From assembly GCF_029589435.1 (NCBI RefSeq), contig NZ_JARRAG010000002.1, positions 3,286,001 to 3,350,000 on the forward strand: a stretch of 64,000 nucleotides of DNA. The letters are read 5' to 3'. Each line of letters opens with the position of its first letter. Position 1 is the first letter of the stretch. Below, one piece after another: positions 2,579-32,054 of this stretch. The stretch comes from Paludisphaera mucosa. GTDB taxonomy: Bacteria; Planctomycetota; Planctomycetia; Isosphaerales; Isosphaeraceae. Both the position numbers and the translations under genes were made by a program. Under the pieces are notes generated by a model. It had not been told where the DNA came from. It was given only the letters and a program-made list of their open reading frames with translations, and did not search any database.

Positions 2579-3907
2579 ATGACGAACGACGCCAGGCCCC
2601 GCGACGGCTCCAGTCGCCGAGGCTTCCTGAACATCGCCGCGACCCTGGGCGCCGCCGCGGCCTTCCCGACAATCATCCCCGCGCGGGCGCTCGGCAAGGG
2701 GGGCGTCGCCGCGGCCAGCGAGCGGATCGGCCTGGGCGTGATCGGCTACGGCCCGCGCTGCACGTACGACCTGGGGCCGATGCTCGCCCAGCCCGACGTC
2801 CAGTGCCGCGTGGTCTGCGACGTCCAGGCGAAGCGGAGAGACGCCGCCAAGGCCCGGGTCGACAAGCACTACGGGAACTCGGATTGCGTCGCCCTCCGCG
2901 ACTTCCGCGAGCTGCTCGACCGCAAGGACGTCGACGCGGTCCTGATCGCCACCGGCGACCGCTGGCACGCCCACGCCTCGATCCTGGCCGCCCGGGCCGG
3001 CAAGGACGTCTACAGCGAGAAGCCCTGCGGCCTGACCATCGACCTCTGCCGCAAGCTGGCCGACGTCATGAAGGAGACCGGCCGCGTCTTCCAGGCCGGC
3101 ACCCAGCGGCGGAGCGTCCCCAACTTCCAGTTTGCGGTCGACCTGGCCCGAAGCGGCAAGCTGGGCAAGCTCAAGACGCTCTACGCCTCGGTCTACACCC
3201 CGTCGTTCACGACCCAGTGGCTCCCCGGCGAGCCGACCCCGAAGAAGGACGCCGTCGACTGGGACCTCTGGCTGGGCCCCGCCCCCTGGCGGCCCTACAA
3301 CCACGCCTACGTCGAGGGCCAGTGGCGCGGGCAGTACGACTTCGACTCGGGCGCGCGGCTGCTGGACTGGGGCGCGCACACGGTCGACCTCTGCCAGTGG
3401 GCCAACGACGCCGACGCCACCACGCCGATCTCGTTCGAGCCCTCCGAGAACAAGATCACGGCGAGGTACGCCAACGGGGTCGAGCTGATCCTCGACTTCC
3501 TCAAGACCCCGTTCGGCGAGCGGACCGGCTGGATCACCTCGCTGGGGACCTGCCCCGTCCGGTTCGTCGGCGAGGAGGGCTGGGTCGAGACCGGCGACAA
3601 CGGCGGCGTCGAGATCCAGCCCGAGTCGCTGCGGGCGAAGCTCAAGGACCTGCCGGCCGGCACGCCCGACAGTGGCCTGGACGTCGGCGGCCACGCGCGG
3701 AACTGGCTGGACTGCATCAAGTCGAGGGCGAAGCCGGCGGCGAACGCCGAGGTGATGCGGAACTCCCACACCGCCTGCCACGCCGCGGCCGCGTCGTGGA
3801 TCCTGGGCCGCAAGCTCGACTTCGACCCGGTCAAGGGCGCCGTCCTGAACGACGAGGAGGCCGACGGCCTGCGCAGCCGCCCCTTCCGCGACGCCTGGCG
3901 GGTCTGA
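2579..3907 (+). CDS. Tat-exported Gfo/Idh/MocA family oxidoreductase
   Basis: 442 aa. The N-terminus has a twin-arginine signal (SRRGFLNIAATLGAAAAFP) ending near ARALG, so the folded enzyme is probably exported with its cofactor. The NAD(P)-binding Rossmann half follows (LGVIGYGPRC, VVCDVQAKR), with the family landmark EKPCG at VYSEKPCGLTI and the substrate half after it (DWDLWLGPAPWRPYN, LLDWGAHTVDLCQWA). These enzymes oxidise or reduce sugars, inositols or related polyols, and planctomycetes have many secreted copies. It is divergent from the solute-binding gene (174-bp gap) and followed by an independent gene. The substrate cannot be predicted. Confidence 0.9.
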   Translation: MTNDARPRDGSSRRGFLNIAATLGAAAAFPTIIPARALGKGGVAAASERIGLGVIGYGPRCTYDLGPMLAQPDVQCRVVCDVQAKRRDAAKARVDKHYGNSDCVALRDFRELLDRKDVDAVLIATGDRWHAHASILAARAGKDVYSEKPCGLTIDLCRKLADVMKETGRVFQAGTQRRSVPNFQFAVDLARSGKLGKLKTLYASVYTPSFTTQWLPGEPTPKKDAVDWDLWLGPAPWRPYNHAYVEGQWRGQYDFDSGARLLDWGAHTVDLCQWANDADATTPISFEPSENKITARYANGVELILDFLKTPFGERTGWITSLGTCPVRFVGEEGWVETGDNGGVEIQPESLRAKLKDLPAGTPDSGLDVGGHARNWLDCIKSRAKPAANAEVMRNSHTACHAAAASWILGRKLDFDPVKGAVLNDEEADGLRSRPFRDAWRV

Positions 3908-4212
3908 CCGGGCCCGCCCGCCCGAACTCGAATCGCGCTGGGCCGCCCCGAATCGGCGGGCGGCCCGGCGATCGACCTTGCCGGGGATCGGCGTTCGGCT
4001 ATGCTGCTCGGCGCGAGATTCCGCGAACCTCCCGCTTCCGAACCGACGGAACGGACGGGAGCCGGGCCGGCCCAGGCATATCTCGTGAGTCGGCCGGCCC
4101 CGGAGCTTCAAGAGATGGACGCGACGCGTCGCGATCGGCCCCGACGGGCCGGGCGATCCCGGTCTCCGGCCGCGCGCCGGGGCCGTGGCTCTCCAAGGAT
4201 GGAGACGGAAGC
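3908..4212. other. intergenic with probable promoter of the PpiC gene
   Basis: About 300 bases between the oxidoreductase and the PpiC lipoprotein. A reading frame stays open right through from upstream, but its codon use here is not gene-like and the translation is proline- and arginine-rich. Apart from the promoter-like pair at 3978-4005 I see nothing in it. Confidence 0.5.
3978..4005 (+). promoter_or_regulatory. possible sigma-70 promoter of the PpiC lipoprotein gene
   Basis: TTGCCG at 3978-3983 and TATGCT at 4000-4005 are separated by 16 bases and lie about 200 bases before ATG 4213. It is pattern matching only; the long leader makes it uncertain. Confidence 0.3.
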
Positions 4213-6009
4213 ATGAAGAGACAGTTCCTCGCGGCGGCCCTGGCCGGACTCGTGGTCGGCGGCTGCGCGCAATCGCGGTCGGCCAAGCTGCCGGACGGGT
4301 CGGAGGGCGACCCGGTCGGGATCGTGCCGATCCCGTCGATCCACGACACGATCAACCGGGGCGGCAACCCCGGCGTGGCGAAGGCCACGCTGCCGGATCC
4401 CTCGAACCCGAACTGGTCGGGCCACCCCCTCATCTCGAAGCGGCCGGCCACCGGGCTGGCGCCGAAGATCGCGTCTTCCGACGGCAGATCCGGCGCCGCC
4501 GCACCCACGGCCGCCCCCGCGCCGGCGACCACTCGCTGGAGCGAGCCCCCCCGGCAGCTCGCCGCCGCACCCGCGGCGGCCGCCGCGCCCGAAGCCATGC
4601 CGGCCCTCCCCGACCCGGCCGACGACGCGGCGCCGCTGCCGCCGGCCGCCGAGTCGGACGCCGCGCCCGCGTCCGCCGAGGTCATCACGCCCGTCGAGGC
4701 GACCGAGCCCGCCGCCGCACCGGCGTCCGAGCCGCCGGCCGCCGTCGCCCCGGCGCCAGCACCGGTCCCGGCCGGCGAGGACCCCTTGCTGGGCCCCGCC
4801 CCCGAGTTGATGCCGGCCATCGATCCGGCGGCCGCCGGCGTCAAGGCCCCCGAGAAACCCCAGGCCGCACCCGCGCCCGAGCCGGCCCCGGCCGTCGAGC
4901 CGCCGCCGATCGAGCCCGCCCCCGCCCCCGGTCCCTCGGCGGCCGCGCGACCGATCCCCGTTCGCGGGGACGGCGCGGTCCAGAAGGTCTCCGCGACGTC
5001 GGCCGCCCTCGCGGCCGACGTCGACGACTCGCAGTGGAAGGAGGCCGGCCGCTCCGCGGCCCGCGTGGGCGACGAGGTGATCACGCTCCGCGAGCTGGTC
5101 TACGCGGTGAAGGAGACCGTCCGCAAGCAGGGCGGCAAGGCGAGCCAGCTCTCGCGCGAAGAGCAGAACATGGTCGCCAAGCACGTCCTCGCCGGTCTCA
5201 TCGAGCGGTCTTTGCTGATCCAGGAGGCCAAGCACCAGCTCAAGGGGAGCGACAAGCAGCTCGCCAAGGTCATCGAGGCCGCCGACAAGTTCTGGCACGA
5301 CGAGGAGCTGCCCCCCCTGCTCCGCCAGAACTCCGTCGAGACCGAGTATCAGCTTCGGCGCAAGTTCGAGGAGGAGGGCCGCTCGCTCACGGCGATCCAG
5401 CAGAACTTCCGCCAGGAGTTCCTGGCCCACGCCTTCATGCAGCAGAAGCTCGGCGGCAAGATCGAGGTCGGCCTCCCCGAGATGCTCGAATACTACAACC
5501 AGCACATCGACGACAAGGAGAACTACCGCTCCGCCGCGATCGTCTGGCGCGAGATTTTGGTCGACAAGCGGCGGCACCCGACGCCGGCCGAGGCCCGCAA
5601 GAAGATCGACGACCTGCTGGTGCGGCTCCGCAAGGGCGAGGACTTCGCCAGGCTCGCCGCCGCCGAGAGCGAGGGACCGACCCGCACCAAGGCCGCCGGC
5701 GGCCTCATGGAGACCGCGCCCGGCAGCTACATCGTGGCCGAGGTCAACAAGGCGATCGAGGCCCTCCCCCTGAACACGACCAGCGACGTCGTCGAGGGCC
5801 CGGACAGCTACCACCTCCTCCGCGTCGAGTCGCGCCGCGCCGGCGGGCCGGCCTCGTTCGCCGAGCTGCAGGGCCCGATCCGCCAGGCCCTCCAGGTCGA
5901 GAAGTCCGAGCAGGAGCGCAAGGCCCTGCTGGCGGCGCTCCGCAAGAAGACCATCATCAAGACCATCTTCGACGGCACCGAGAGCGATCCCAACCAGGTC
6001 CGCAGGTGA
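4213..6009 (+). CDS. PpiC-type peptidyl-prolyl isomerase lipoprotein, SurA-like
   Basis: 598 aa. ATG 4213 is chosen because a lipoprotein signal follows at once (MKRQFLAAALAGLVVGGCAQS, lipobox VGGC) and GGAG lies 8 bases upstream; the frame is open far upstream but without coding character. Residues about 80-260 are an Ala/Pro-rich linker, probably spanning the periplasm. A helical SurA-N-like region follows (GDEVITLRELVYAVKETV onward), then a parvulin domain at about 440-550 (ILVDKRRHPTPAEARKKIDDLL, KGEDFARLAAAESEG, GGLMETAPGS, DSYHLLRVESRRAG). It is expected to help fold outer-membrane or exported proteins. Catalysis is not proven from motifs alone. Confidence 0.88.
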   Translation: MKRQFLAAALAGLVVGGCAQSRSAKLPDGSEGDPVGIVPIPSIHDTINRGGNPGVAKATLPDPSNPNWSGHPLISKRPATGLAPKIASSDGRSGAAAPTAAPAPATTRWSEPPRQLAAAPAAAAAPEAMPALPDPADDAAPLPPAAESDAAPASAEVITPVEATEPAAAPASEPPAAVAPAPAPVPAGEDPLLGPAPELMPAIDPAAAGVKAPEKPQAAPAPEPAPAVEPPPIEPAPAPGPSAAARPIPVRGDGAVQKVSATSAALAADVDDSQWKEAGRSAARVGDEVITLRELVYAVKETVRKQGGKASQLSREEQNMVAKHVLAGLIERSLLIQEAKHQLKGSDKQLAKVIEAADKFWHDEELPPLLRQNSVETEYQLRRKFEEEGRSLTAIQQNFRQEFLAHAFMQQKLGGKIEVGLPEMLEYYNQHIDDKENYRSAAIVWREILVDKRRHPTPAEARKKIDDLLVRLRKGEDFARLAAAESEGPTRTKAAGGLMETAPGSYIVAEVNKAIEALPLNTTSDVVEGPDSYHLLRVESRRAGGPASFAELQGPIRQALQVEKSEQERKALLAALRKKTIIKTIFDGTESDPNQVRR

Positions 6010-27289: not shown

Positions 27290-29041
27290 ATGTCGCGAAC
27301 CGCGAGACTGTGGAAAGGCGCCGGGCTGCTGACCCTGGGCGGCGTTTTGCTGTCCGGGGCCGCCTCGCGCGGCGACGACGCCCCGCCGCTTGCCGACCAA
27401 CTGACCGACCTGGGGCGACAGGCGCTCGCCCAGGGCGCCGGCGGGATGGCTCGCTCCTTCTTCCAGAAGGCGCTCGAGATCGATCCCGACAACGCCGACG
27501 CCACCAAGGGCCTCGCCGAGGCCAAGGTCGCCCAGGAGCGGCTCGCCCGGGTCGCCCTGCAAGAACCCGCCGCGCCGCCGCCGGCCCCGGGCCTCGACAA
27601 CGCCCCGGCCGACCCCGCGGCCCCGGCCGCGCCCGCTCCGGCCGCGGTCGCCCAGCCGACGCCCACGCCCCCCGCCCCGCCGAGCGCCGGCCCGAACAAT
27701 CGGGCGACCCTCGAGGAGTCGGACCGGGCCGACGCCGTCGCCCGCCAGCAGCTGACCAGCGACGTCGAGCAGCGGCTCACCGCGGCCCGCGAGATGGTCC
27801 GCAGCGGCTCTCCCGAGGGGGCCCTCGACGCCCTCCGGCTCGCCCAGAACGTCGTCCGGTCGGCCTCGAACGTGCCCGAGAGCGTCCGCAACGACCTCGA
27901 CCGCCGGATCCAGGCCCAGTACCTGGCGACCGTCCGCGACGCCGACCGCCTCGTCGCCGAGCGGCTCGAACGCCAGCGGGTCCAGTCGGCCGCCGAGCAG
28001 CGGAACCGGGGCCTCTCACAGCTCGTCGCCAACCAGCAGACCATCAAGGCGATGATGGACCAGTTCGACACCCTCATGGGCGAGGGCGCCTACAACTCGC
28101 TGTACAACGGCGGCATGGGCAACATCGCCCTGGCCACCGCGCCCTTCTACGACGCCCGCCTGCTTTCGCAGCACGCCCGGGCGCTCATGCACAAGGGGAC
28201 CCTCCCCTACAGCGACGAGGACCCGGCCCCCTTCGCCGGCATGTTCCTCTCCACGACCATGGGCTTCCTGTCGCAGGAACGCCAGTACGAGGCGCTCAAA
28301 GAGTATCGCTTCATGCTGACGATGGAAGACGTCGACCGCGCGGCGGTCCCCTTCCCCGACAACAAGATCATCGAATACCCCGACGCCGAGCTGTTCCGCA
28401 ACATCTCGGAGCGGCGGATCGCCCGCTACGGCAAGGCCGTCGACGTGTTCGACCGCGACCCCAAGACCAAGTCGATCCTCGCCAAGCTCGACGAGCCCCT
28501 GGCGATGAACTTCCCCAACGAGACGCCCCTGGAAGACGTCCTCAAGTACGTCAAGCAGGCGACCCAGACCCCCAGCGACAACGGCATCCCGATCTACGTC
28601 GACCCGATCGGCCTCAATGAGGCCGACAAGACGATGACCTCGCCGGTGTCGCTCGACCTCGACGGCGTGCCCCTCAAGACGACGCTCCGGCTGATGCTCA
28701 AGCAGCTCGGCCTGACCTACACGGTCAAGGACGGCTTCCTGATGATCACGTCGCAGGAGTCGGAAGACCAGCAGACCGACATCCGCGTCTATCCCGTGGC
28801 CGACCTGGCGCTCATCCCCATCTCGCTCATCTCGGGCGGCGGCGGCGGCGGCATGGGCGGCGGTATGGGCGGCGGCATGGGCGGCATGGGCGGCGGCGGC
28901 GGCATGGGCGGCATGGGCGGCGGCGGCATGGGCGGCATGGGCGGCGGCATGGGCGGCGGCGGCATGGGCATGATGTCCATCCCGGTCTCTCCGGCCCAGG
29001 ACGATCCCGCCAGCGCCCTCATGCAAAAAAAAAGCAACTGA
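27290..29041 (+). CDS. exported TPR/STN-domain protein with GGM-rich tail, ends at a 9-A tract
   Basis: 583 aa with a signal peptide (GAGLLTLGGVLLSGAASRG). A TPR-like helix pair follows (ALAQGAGGMARSFFQKALEIDPDNADATKGLAEAK), then an Ala/Pro linker, a long helical region to about residue 380, and an STN/secretin-N-like domain at about 400-500 (IYVDPIGLNEADKTM, LTYTVKDGFLMITS). The same domain ends the gene at 1-297. Residues 516-562 are almost only Gly and Met. The frame closes right after nine A residues (29025-29033) with KKSN and TGA. The -1 frame is open from 28621 to 30381, so this stop is probably bypassed by slippage or is an artefact (see the next entry). Confidence 0.85.
   Translation: MSRTARLWKGAGLLTLGGVLLSGAASRGDDAPPLADQLTDLGRQALAQGAGGMARSFFQKALEIDPDNADATKGLAEAKVAQERLARVALQEPAAPPPAPGLDNAPADPAAPAAPAPAAVAQPTPTPPAPPSAGPNNRATLEESDRADAVARQQLTSDVEQRLTAAREMVRSGSPEGALDALRLAQNVVRSASNVPESVRNDLDRRIQAQYLATVRDADRLVAERLERQRVQSAAEQRNRGLSQLVANQQTIKAMMDQFDTLMGEGAYNSLYNGGMGNIALATAPFYDARLLSQHARALMHKGTLPYSDEDPAPFAGMFLSTTMGFLSQERQYEALKEYRFMLTMEDVDRAAVPFPDNKIIEYPDAELFRNISERRIARYGKAVDVFDRDPKTKSILAKLDEPLAMNFPNETPLEDVLKYVKQATQTPSDNGIPIYVDPIGLNEADKTMTSPVSLDLDGVPLKTTLRLMLKQLGLTYTVKDGFLMITSQESEDQQTDIRVYPVADLALIPISLISGGGGGGMGGGMGGGMGGMGGGGGMGGMGGGGMGGMGGGMGGGGMGMMSIPVSPAQDDPASALMQKKSN
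28835..28975 (+). repeat. GGC/ATG low-complexity tract coding Gly-Met repeats
   Basis: 47 codons, every one Gly or Met, in irregular GGM, GGGM and GGGGM units. It is a degenerate trinucleotide-based repeat and may vary in length between strains. Similar tracts lie at 51917-51997 and, on the other strand, at 57855-57974. Confidence 0.85.
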
Positions 29042-30381
29042 CCGCTCCCAGGACCGGCTCCAACCGTCCTTCTAACGACGCTTCGCGGGATCAGTCCGGC
29101 CGAAAGGCGGCTGATCCCGCCGGCGTTCTAGAGAAGTCCCCGGCCGCGAAGCCCGGCGCAAAACCGATCGATCCCAAGGTCGTCCCGGCGCCGGCCGCCG
29201 GCCGGTCTTCTCGTGAAGGGCTGATCCCGATCACCGGGGCGACGTCCGCCAAACCTTCGTCCGGGGGCGATCCCTACGCCTACTGGGCGGACTATTTTCG
29301 AAAGCACGACGAGACGCCCGACCAGGTCCACGAGACGATCCGCCTCCTCAACCGCAGCGGCAAGACCCGCGACGTCCACGCCGCGATCCTCGGCTATCTC
29401 AAAGAGCGGCCCAAGAACGCCGAGTTCTGGATGTACGAGGCCCTCGCCCTGGCGATCGAGATGAACGGCGGCAAGCCCGAGGACATGAAGACCGCCCTGA
29501 ACTACGCCGCCGACCTCGCCCAGCGCTCGCACAACCCGAATCACCTCGTCAGCGCGGCCGACAAGCTGATGCTCAAGGGCTTCACCGACCGCGTCGGCCC
29601 CCTGCTCGACGAGGCCCACGAGAAGATCCCCCACCGCTCCGAGCCGCTGGCGATGTCGATCAACCTGGCCCAGAAGACCCGCGACCCTAAGCGGATGGCC
29701 GACTCGATCGACAGGCTCCTGTCCCTGGGCTGGCCCGGCCAGGACGAGTACTTCCGCCGCGAGAGCCGCAAGCAGGCCGAGACGCTCGCCAAGGTCCTCA
29801 CCGAGGAAGGCCGCACCGAGGAGGCCGAGAAGCTCCTGGGCTCCCTCCCCGCCGCCGAGGCCCGCGACCTCTACATCCGCCTGAGCTGGGACGGCGACGC
29901 CGACTACGACCTGGTCGTCCAGGAGCCCCTGGGCGCGACCGTCGCCTACACCATGCCGCGGTCCGTCTTCGGCGGGGCCCTGATCAAGAACGGCCTGGGT
30001 GCGCACCCCGAGGAGATCTACGTCTGCCCTCGGGGCTTCGACGGCGACTACACCGTCCGCATCATGATGATCGCCAACGACGCCGTCCGGCCGGCCACCC
30101 GCCTGACCCTGGAGACGATCACCCACGAGGGCGACGCCAAGGAGGTCAAGAAGACCGTCACCCTGGCTCCCAACGACCCCAAGGCCAAGCCCGTCGTCGT
30201 CACCCTCAAGGACGGCCGCCGCACCAAGGTCCTCCCGTTCGTCAGCCCGGCCGTCGTCCGCCAGTCCGTCGAAGAGGTCCTCGAGAACCGCTCCGAGAAG
30301 GACAAGGAGAAGACCAAGGACCAGGCGCCCGAGGCCAAGAAGCCCGAGACGAAGCCCAGGAACGCTATCCCGATCCAGTGA
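29032..30381 (+). CDS. -1 frame continuation: TPR plus DUF2135-like domain, no own start
   Basis: 449 codons open in the frame reached by a -1 shift at the 9-A tract. No ATG, GTG or TTG occurs in frame until ATG 29431, yet codon bias is already strong from about 29270 (YAYWADYFRKHDETPDQVHETIRLLNRSGK). Starting at 29431 would cut that helical domain. The body is TPR-like (LVSAADKLMLKGF, MADSIDRLLSLGW), then a beta domain at LYIRLSWDGDADYDLVVQEPLG and GFDGDYTVRIMMIAN, which resembles the DUF2135/YfaP type, and a Lys-rich tail. Together with the previous frame it would make one protein of about 1030 aa. The alternatives are a sequencing indel or a true frameshift mutation. Confidence 0.75.
   Translation, partial: KQLTAPRTGSNRPSNDASRDQSGRKAADPAGVLEKSPAAKPGAKPIDPKVVPAPAAGRSSREGLIPITGATSAKPSSGGDPYAYWADYFRKHDETPDQVHETIRLLNRSGKTRDVHAAILGYLKERPKNAEFWMYEALALAIEMNGGKPEDMKTALNYAADLAQRSHNPNHLVSAADKLMLKGFTDRVGPLLDEAHEKIPHRSEPLAMSINLAQKTRDPKRMADSIDRLLSLGWPGQDEYFRRESRKQAETLAKVLTEEGRTEEAEKLLGSLPAAEARDLYIRLSWDGDADYDLVVQEPLGATVAYTMPRSVFGGALIKNGLGAHPEEIYVCPRGFDGDYTVRIMMIANDAVRPATRLTLETITHEGDAKEVKKTVTLAPNDPKAKPVVVTLKDGRRTKVLPFVSPAVVRQSVEEVLENRSEKDKEKTKDQAPEAKKPETKPRNAIPIQ

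Positions 30382-30644: not shown

Positions 30645-32054
<1,410 letters not shown>

Follow-up and report, generated by a model that had tools for sequence, protein, structure and literature searches.

The stretch of DNA analysed here, hereafter the window, comprises 64,000 nucleotides from the planctomycete Paludisphaera mucosa (contig NZ_JARRAG010000002.1, positions 3,286,001 to 3,350,000), and its subject is a gene in which two reading frames meet at a run of nine adenines (A9). The run occupies exactly positions 29025-29033 of the forward strand. An ATG-started open reading frame (ORF) of 583 aa, 27290-29041 on the same strand, leads into it and ends with CAA AAA AAA AGC AAC TGA. The run thus starts at codon position 2, and only a single codon (AAC) separates AGC, the last codon with a base of the run, from the frame-0 stop TGA at 29039-29041, which lies 8 nt 3′ of the run. 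The -1 frame opens at 28621, contains no ATG, GTG or TTG until the ATG at 29431 and continues to a TGA at 30379-30381. These coordinates of the run and of the start-less open frame, which had been given in an initial annotation made from the sequence, are borne out. When the N-terminal part (read up to the second AAA) is joined to the 449 aa which the -1 frame encodes from AAG at 29032 to the TGA (the C-terminal part; 29032-30381), a protein of about 1030 aa would result. In the third frame a TAA follows 42 nt 3′ of the run (29073-29075) and would terminate mRNAs changed in the opposite direction.

The N-terminal ORF has, judged by eye, a signal-peptide-like start, followed by a TPR-like region, an STN-like domain (secretin/TonB short N-terminal domain; residues 453-488, 28646-28753) and a Gly/Met-rich tail, in which a Gly-Gly-Met-rich segment of low complexity (approximately 28835-28972) precedes the slip site. 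The Pfam matches of this part, TPR_19 (E = 3.7e-5) and STN (PF07660, E = 3.5e-4), are below the cut-offs; with 20.8 bits against a curated cut-off of 28.4 the latter can only be called STN-like. The structure model of the N-terminal part is poor (mean pLDDT 50). The C-terminal part begins with a linker which is predicted to be disordered (29032-29271), with conserved -1-frame motifs KQL...RDQxG...GP. Then follow an alpha-helical TPR-type solenoid (C-part residues 81-276, 29272-29859) and a DUF2135-like beta domain (residues 278-392, 29863-30207), both delineated with AlphaFold2. Block-mean pLDDT values are mostly 81-96 for the solenoid, with one block of 64, and Foldseek returns TPR matches; for the beta domain the blocks range from 67 to 84. 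Among 43 family members, 5 match DUF2135 (PF09906) with E ≤ 0.01 (best 2.2e-4), and the window protein itself has no DUF2135 match up to E = 1. A search by sequence among solved structures gave nothing useful. Probably, the short product is a TPR/STN-like protein that ends in a Gly-Met-rich tail and is exported, whereas the long product is predicted to gain the disordered linker, the TPR solenoid and the beta domain. The STN-like segment (profile positions about 685-797) recurs in other proteins of the compared genomes, sometimes twice per contig, which suggests a wider family of STN-like proteins.

The own 8.2-Mb genome contains just seven overlapping A9 matches, corresponding to six distinct sites. 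With A9 so rare genome-wide, a run exactly at the joint of the gene is not due to chance. By eye, four of the five other sites (L001, L003/L004, L006 and L007) resemble terminators read on the opposite strand, with an inverted repeat immediately 3′ of the run; the remaining one (L002) is without explanation. The 9.4-Mb genome of a relative (G040) has only four overlapping matches, and the A9 of the gene is present there (L075). In other genomes of the family A9 matches are more numerous, with a maximum of 197 (G033).

We compared the gene within its class. The C-terminal part was matched in 44 of 45 genomes of the window's own family, the Isosphaeraceae (family f1), covering all 21 genera, and in 82 genomes of a second family of the same class (f2). 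The comparison comprises 125 loci, namely 44 of f1 (including G044) and 81 of the 82 matching f2 genomes; a set of 124 loci with profile-checked domains holds 43 of f1 (without G044) and the f2 loci. We called the first run of at least eight As that is followed by at least 1050 nt of open frame, and by this rule no locus was without a run. Left out of the counts are G017 (f1) and G280 (f2), both without a C-part match, a contig fragment (G286), a duplicate locus (L152) and a second, spurious run in L144. The loci stem from related genomes, so the counts are not independent trials.

The length of the run is nearly invariant: A9 in 121 loci, A8 in two and A10 in two. Loci with the A9 site span 57 genera, 21 in f1 and 36 in f2. 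All but one of the 44 f1 loci have exactly A9, and the exception (G035) has A10 and a single frame of 1057 aa. The f2 loci are A9 in 78 of 81 cases, A8 in G158 and G254 and A10 in G164, here again with a single frame (1351 aa). The two domains lie in different frames in 115 of the 124 loci (113 with A9, two with A8), and the two A10 loci are the only ones with both in one frame. In the other seven, A9 is present without an upstream match; six of these (G013, G043, G289, G239, G084 and G167) are near contig ends, and in the seventh (G277) the N-part matches are on other contigs. The initial annotation had proposed that the A-run bridges two frames into one protein of about 1030 aa and had pointed to orthologues as a check. 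The 115 loci that are split in frame strongly support this proposal; in both families the run is kept, and only the A10 loci are one frame.

Could the split be an error of the assembly, with a true run of A10, or the mark of a decaying pseudogene? Homopolymers are error-prone, and G035 and G164 do read A10 in one frame. However, A9 runs across 57 genera are too many for an assembly error, genomes of 1-5 contigs are among them, and both halves of the gene are conserved. We therefore regard this explanation as extremely improbable. The same two A10 relatives might be taken as a sign of phase variation at the DNA level, in which replication slippage at the run toggles the long form. Such a mechanism should leave scattered run lengths, but the length is almost fixed in our comparison between species; we give this idea hardly any weight.

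The surroundings of the run are far less constant. The first A of the run occupies codon position 2 in 38 of the 40 split loci of f1 and position 3 in the other two, whereas in the 75 of f2 it occupies position 1 in 65, position 3 in seven and position 2 in three. The flanks of the two families have nothing obvious in common except near stops. Thus, codon phase and flanks diverged while the run did not. Nor does a synonymous AAG break up the run; only the two A8 loci carry one, at the final position. The mean share of AAA among the lysine codons of the genes is 21% in f1 (42 loci) and 43% in f2 (73 loci). Even the direction of the required shift is not fixed. It is -1 in 111 of the 115 split loci and +1 in four loci from three genera (G143, G260, G075 and G292), and one genus (g40) has one species with -1 and one with +1.

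The stops are positioned tightly. In f1 the frame-0 stop is found 8 nt 3′ of the run in 38 of 40 split loci and 10 nt in two, and in f2 the distance is 3-30 nt. Compared with the expectation from control sequence of the same gene, the frame-0 stop is nearer in all 115 loci and the stop of the third frame is nearer in 107. The frames change over at the run: from the opening of the downstream frame to the frame-0 stop, the 12 tightest loci leave 10-28 nt around the run and 46 of the 115 at most 45 nt, with a median of 55 nt.

The -1 frame 3′ of the run is coding sequence. Among 15 pairs of loci, the differences in the linker at codon positions 1, 2 and 3 amount to 191, 131 and 305 (summed by hand), and position 3 was not the most variable in only one pair (G050/G054). 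This bears on the possibility that we deal with two separate genes, the C-terminal part being started independently downstream, coupled or not. We scored start codons and words similar to the Shine–Dalgarno (SD) sequence in all 115 split loci. At least one ATG, GTG or TTG is present before the core of the C part in 32 of 40 f1 and 55 of 75 f2 loci, as a separate gene would require, but 8 and 20 loci, respectively, have none. A start preceded by an SD-like word of at least four bases exists in just 7 of 40 and 7 of 75 loci, and a GTG with a word of 5-6 bases in two (G134 and G113). We therefore rejected an independent start of the C part. A CTG overlapping the TGA was also rejected as start, since the bases 3′ of the run vary and the stops are TAG, TAA or TGA. 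The signature of a downstream gene with its own start and ribosome site, which the initial annotation had named as the finding that would speak against a fusion, is thus seen in just 14 of 115 loci. A separate downstream gene does occur in family f16, as described below. Two separate genes would moreover leave the A9 run and the coding linker directly after it unexplained, and as an account of the split loci we consider them very unlikely.

The wider class shows which other arrangements exist. When the whole class was searched by profile, 283 of 297 genomes had the C part, and 157 of the 283 belong to other families (283 less 44 of f1 and 82 of f2; counted by hand). For 98 of these 157 an open frame is listed, and in 87 it has at least 1016 aa, that is, one long ORF. 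The 11 short frames are the two of f16, one each in G049 and G070 (a fragmentary match), and seven at contig ends (G178, G065, G249, G205, G199, G059 and G141). We inspected 11 single-ORF genomes of other families; by profile both domains are in one ORF, and a run of nine or more As is absent in all 11, with an A8 in G103. The fused orthologues show the same domain order with a Gly-rich segment in between. In f16 (G154/L203 and G223/L204) the N and C parts are separate genes without an A-run. There the Gly-rich segment is followed by the end of the N part, and the C gene has a GTG, the SD-like GGAGA and, by eye, a signal-peptide-like start. In G277 (family f2; L121, about 3566-5480 of the reversed locus) the C part has a signal-peptide-like start together with an in-frame A9; this is possibly a lineage in which the parts were separated, or else an assembly artefact. 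The signal-peptide-like starts of f16 and G277 suggest an extracytoplasmic place for the C part. The separate gene of f16 and the two A10 relatives are lineage-specific exceptions. In G049 (L273, family f6) the N and C parts are in different, overlapping frames, which we cannot explain; the part of this locus that was scanned (L151) has no A-run of seven or more, and the split may reflect an error in sequencing or a different arrangement. Outside the class, a phylum search returned 18 genomes with weaker, mostly partial matches to the C domain (best E = 7e-20), and a plasmid search with the C part gave no match.

We consider it likely that the A9 run is a programmed site of transcriptional slippage from which a short form and a long form of about 1030 aa are made. 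We suggest that expression proceeds as follows. RNA polymerase would copy the run mostly as nine As, and translation of this mRNA would end at once and yield the short protein. A fraction of the mRNAs would gain one A (or lose two), and these would direct the synthesis of the protein of about 1030 aa with the TPR and beta-domain part. mRNAs changed the other way would stop a few codons later. The linker of the window contains, by eye, no signal-peptide-like or hydrophobic stretch; since the C part of the window thus lacks an apparent signal peptide, fusion to the N part would be its only way to the envelope.

Two published yardsticks are helpful here. Genes with ribosomal frameshifting keep the direction of the shift among orthologues, whereas genes with transcriptional realignment need not, and this difference has been used as a test (PMC3711429). 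Further, a run of nine As whose length is conserved among homologues has been judged very likely to serve purposeful slippage (PMC1088944). In our loci the length of about nine As is conserved (121 of 125), the frame transition is at the run and the direction is unfixed (111 with -1, four with +1). Also the apparent need to end both wrong frames fits a slipping polymerase, which changes the number of As both ways. The initial annotation did not decide between ribosome and polymerase; our data favour a transcript with an altered number of As. Solely for orientation on the rate, frameshifting reached 40% in Escherichia coli with an A9 cassette taken from another gene (PMC3711429).

The main rival explanation is programmed -1 ribosomal frameshifting, in which two lysine tRNAs slip on A_AAA_AAA and the same fusion is made from an unaltered mRNA. 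Several observations speak for it and hence against a slipping polymerase. Every A9 locus has A_AAA_AAA in frame, regardless of the phase of the run, so that the ribosome could make the required shift by slipping -1 in 111 of the 115 loci, and most loci indeed share this one direction, the +1 loci being few. Both A8 loci read A_AAA_AAG, which is the heptamer of E. coli dnaX (PMC3711429). In addition, the RNA 3-68 nt after the run folds modestly better than the control over the 115 loci (mean z -0.71 versus -0.15, P = 0.001), with z below -2 in 17% of the split loci versus 3% of the controls, as a ribosomal stimulator would give. Two of the five congeners of the window species reach a z of about -2. 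In the window itself, however, the downstream RNA is not unusual (z +0.47), and among six species of the genus folded singly no common structure was found, only a weak average signal. An upstream SD stimulator was rejected since it is not above control in the 115 split loci: SD-like words of 5-6 bases precede the run in one locus (control rate 1.5%) and words of four or more bases in four (control 8.2%). Four loci would have to shift by +1 from the same A9, which departs from the conserved direction of ribosomal sites. Moreover, seven As, or AAG with its G at the wobble position, should suffice for the ribosome, yet A9 is kept in 113 of the 115 split loci, and a ribosomal -1 shift gives no reason for the unusually near stop in the third frame. 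Taken together, we judge ribosomal frameshifting unlikely, and still far less so than any of the other alternatives.

The own genome carries tRNA-Lys genes for both AAG and AAA, the AAA type being found only in a tRNA array; the typing covered part of 73 tRNA matches. This array (L306, G000:C1:837000-843500) comprises 23 tRNA genes, many of them with low covariance scores, and includes both lysine types. Another tRNA-Lys (AAG) is located on the other large contig (L287). A review raises the possibility that having two lysine tRNAs plays a part in the polymerase slippage of Thermus (PMC5009743).

How did the site evolve? In an rpoB tree (quick method, SH-aLRT support only) the sister group of f2 consists of single-ORF families and f16, with a support of 97 for the joint group and 100 and 96 for its halves. 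Family f1 is outside this group, and the tree does not resolve where it stands among the single-ORF families f3, f4 and f8. The tree of the C part also separates f1 from f2. We therefore rejected the idea that one family had received the A9 gene from the other, as the C-part tree keeps the families apart like rpoB does. Since f1 and f2 are not sisters in either tree, the A9 site was invented twice at the same joint, or it is ancestral. In the ancestral case the site was resolved as one ORF in most of the families seen, as two genes in f16 and as A10 in G035 and G164. The A10 loci show an easy route between the split and the fused state. We lean towards the view that a two-form envelope protein controlled by slippage has persisted through the history of both families, having arisen twice or in the ancestor of the class, and that slippage of RNA polymerase sets the ratio of short to long protein.

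What the two forms might be good for is suggested by analogy to the two forms of TssM. Short subunits may form or line a structure in the envelope, and the minority of long subunits would carry a partner-binding module, such that both forms would be needed. Directly downstream of the gene (30645-32054, forward strand) is an ORF which, by eye only, looks like a sigma-54-type response regulator.

Genes of this kind are known, and our case is best judged next to them. The -1 ribosomal frameshift of E. coli dnaX uses an upstream SD sequence and a downstream stem–loop. It resembles the planctomycete gene in having an A-rich slippery site (PMC3711429) and two products, but its direction is fixed, whereas here SD words are not enriched and no common structure is seen. 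The dnaX cluster of the GeneTack survey comprises 17 genes (PMC3711429). The survey, which included two planctomycete genomes, does not mention our gene in the part of its main text that was available, and a search of the literature on slippage or frameshifting in planctomycetes or Isosphaera gave no title on this gene among the papers listed, although an earlier mention is possible. The magnesium chelatase cluster of the same survey likewise has two ORFs at an A-run and fused homologues in other bacteria, and its cassettes gave 63, 40 and 10% frameshifting in E. coli at 11, 9 and 7 As. It differs in that it consists of 23 genes from six scattered genera, with -1 shifts only, a varying run and an unrelated protein (PMC3711429). 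Shigella mxiE and the IS630-type transposases also have two ORFs and homopolymer slippage, and relatives of the insertion sequences show both directions (PMC1088944, PMC3711429). These are, however, a virulence regulator and mobile genes, whereas the A9-site gene is chromosomal and has one C-part match in 42 of 45 f1 genomes.

The closest likenesses are found in two other systems. The dnaX gene of Thermus thermophilus is a cellular gene with a sense-strand A9, two product lengths, nearby stops in the other frames and two lysine tRNAs (PMC5009743, PMC1088944). Its protein is unrelated, and its DNA frame encodes the long product with slippage giving the short one, which is reversed here except in the A10 relatives. 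In tssM1 of Citrobacter rodentium (A11), a chromosomal gene of an envelope machine, the DNA encodes the short form and slippage adds a C-terminal domain, as we propose for the A9 site; both forms of TssM are required, and their ratio, with 3-4 short forms to each long one, is critical (PMC4256274). The proteins are again unrelated, and the need for two forms, established for TssM, is one we infer for the planctomycete protein. Poly-A tssM was reported in two species, the authors having found one other case (PMC4256274), as opposed to the two families here.

In summary, the gene is probably a slippage gene of a known kind, with unusually deep conservation: in two planctomycete families almost all sampled genomes have the A9 site, while the other cellular cases, as far as the cited sources describe them, are from far fewer lineages. 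Annotation as two ORFs or as a pseudogene would miss a protein of about 1000 aa. With the natural variants (A8, A9 and A10, -1 and +1, fused and separate), slippage and its efficiency can be tested directly, and so can the way in which two-product genes evolve.

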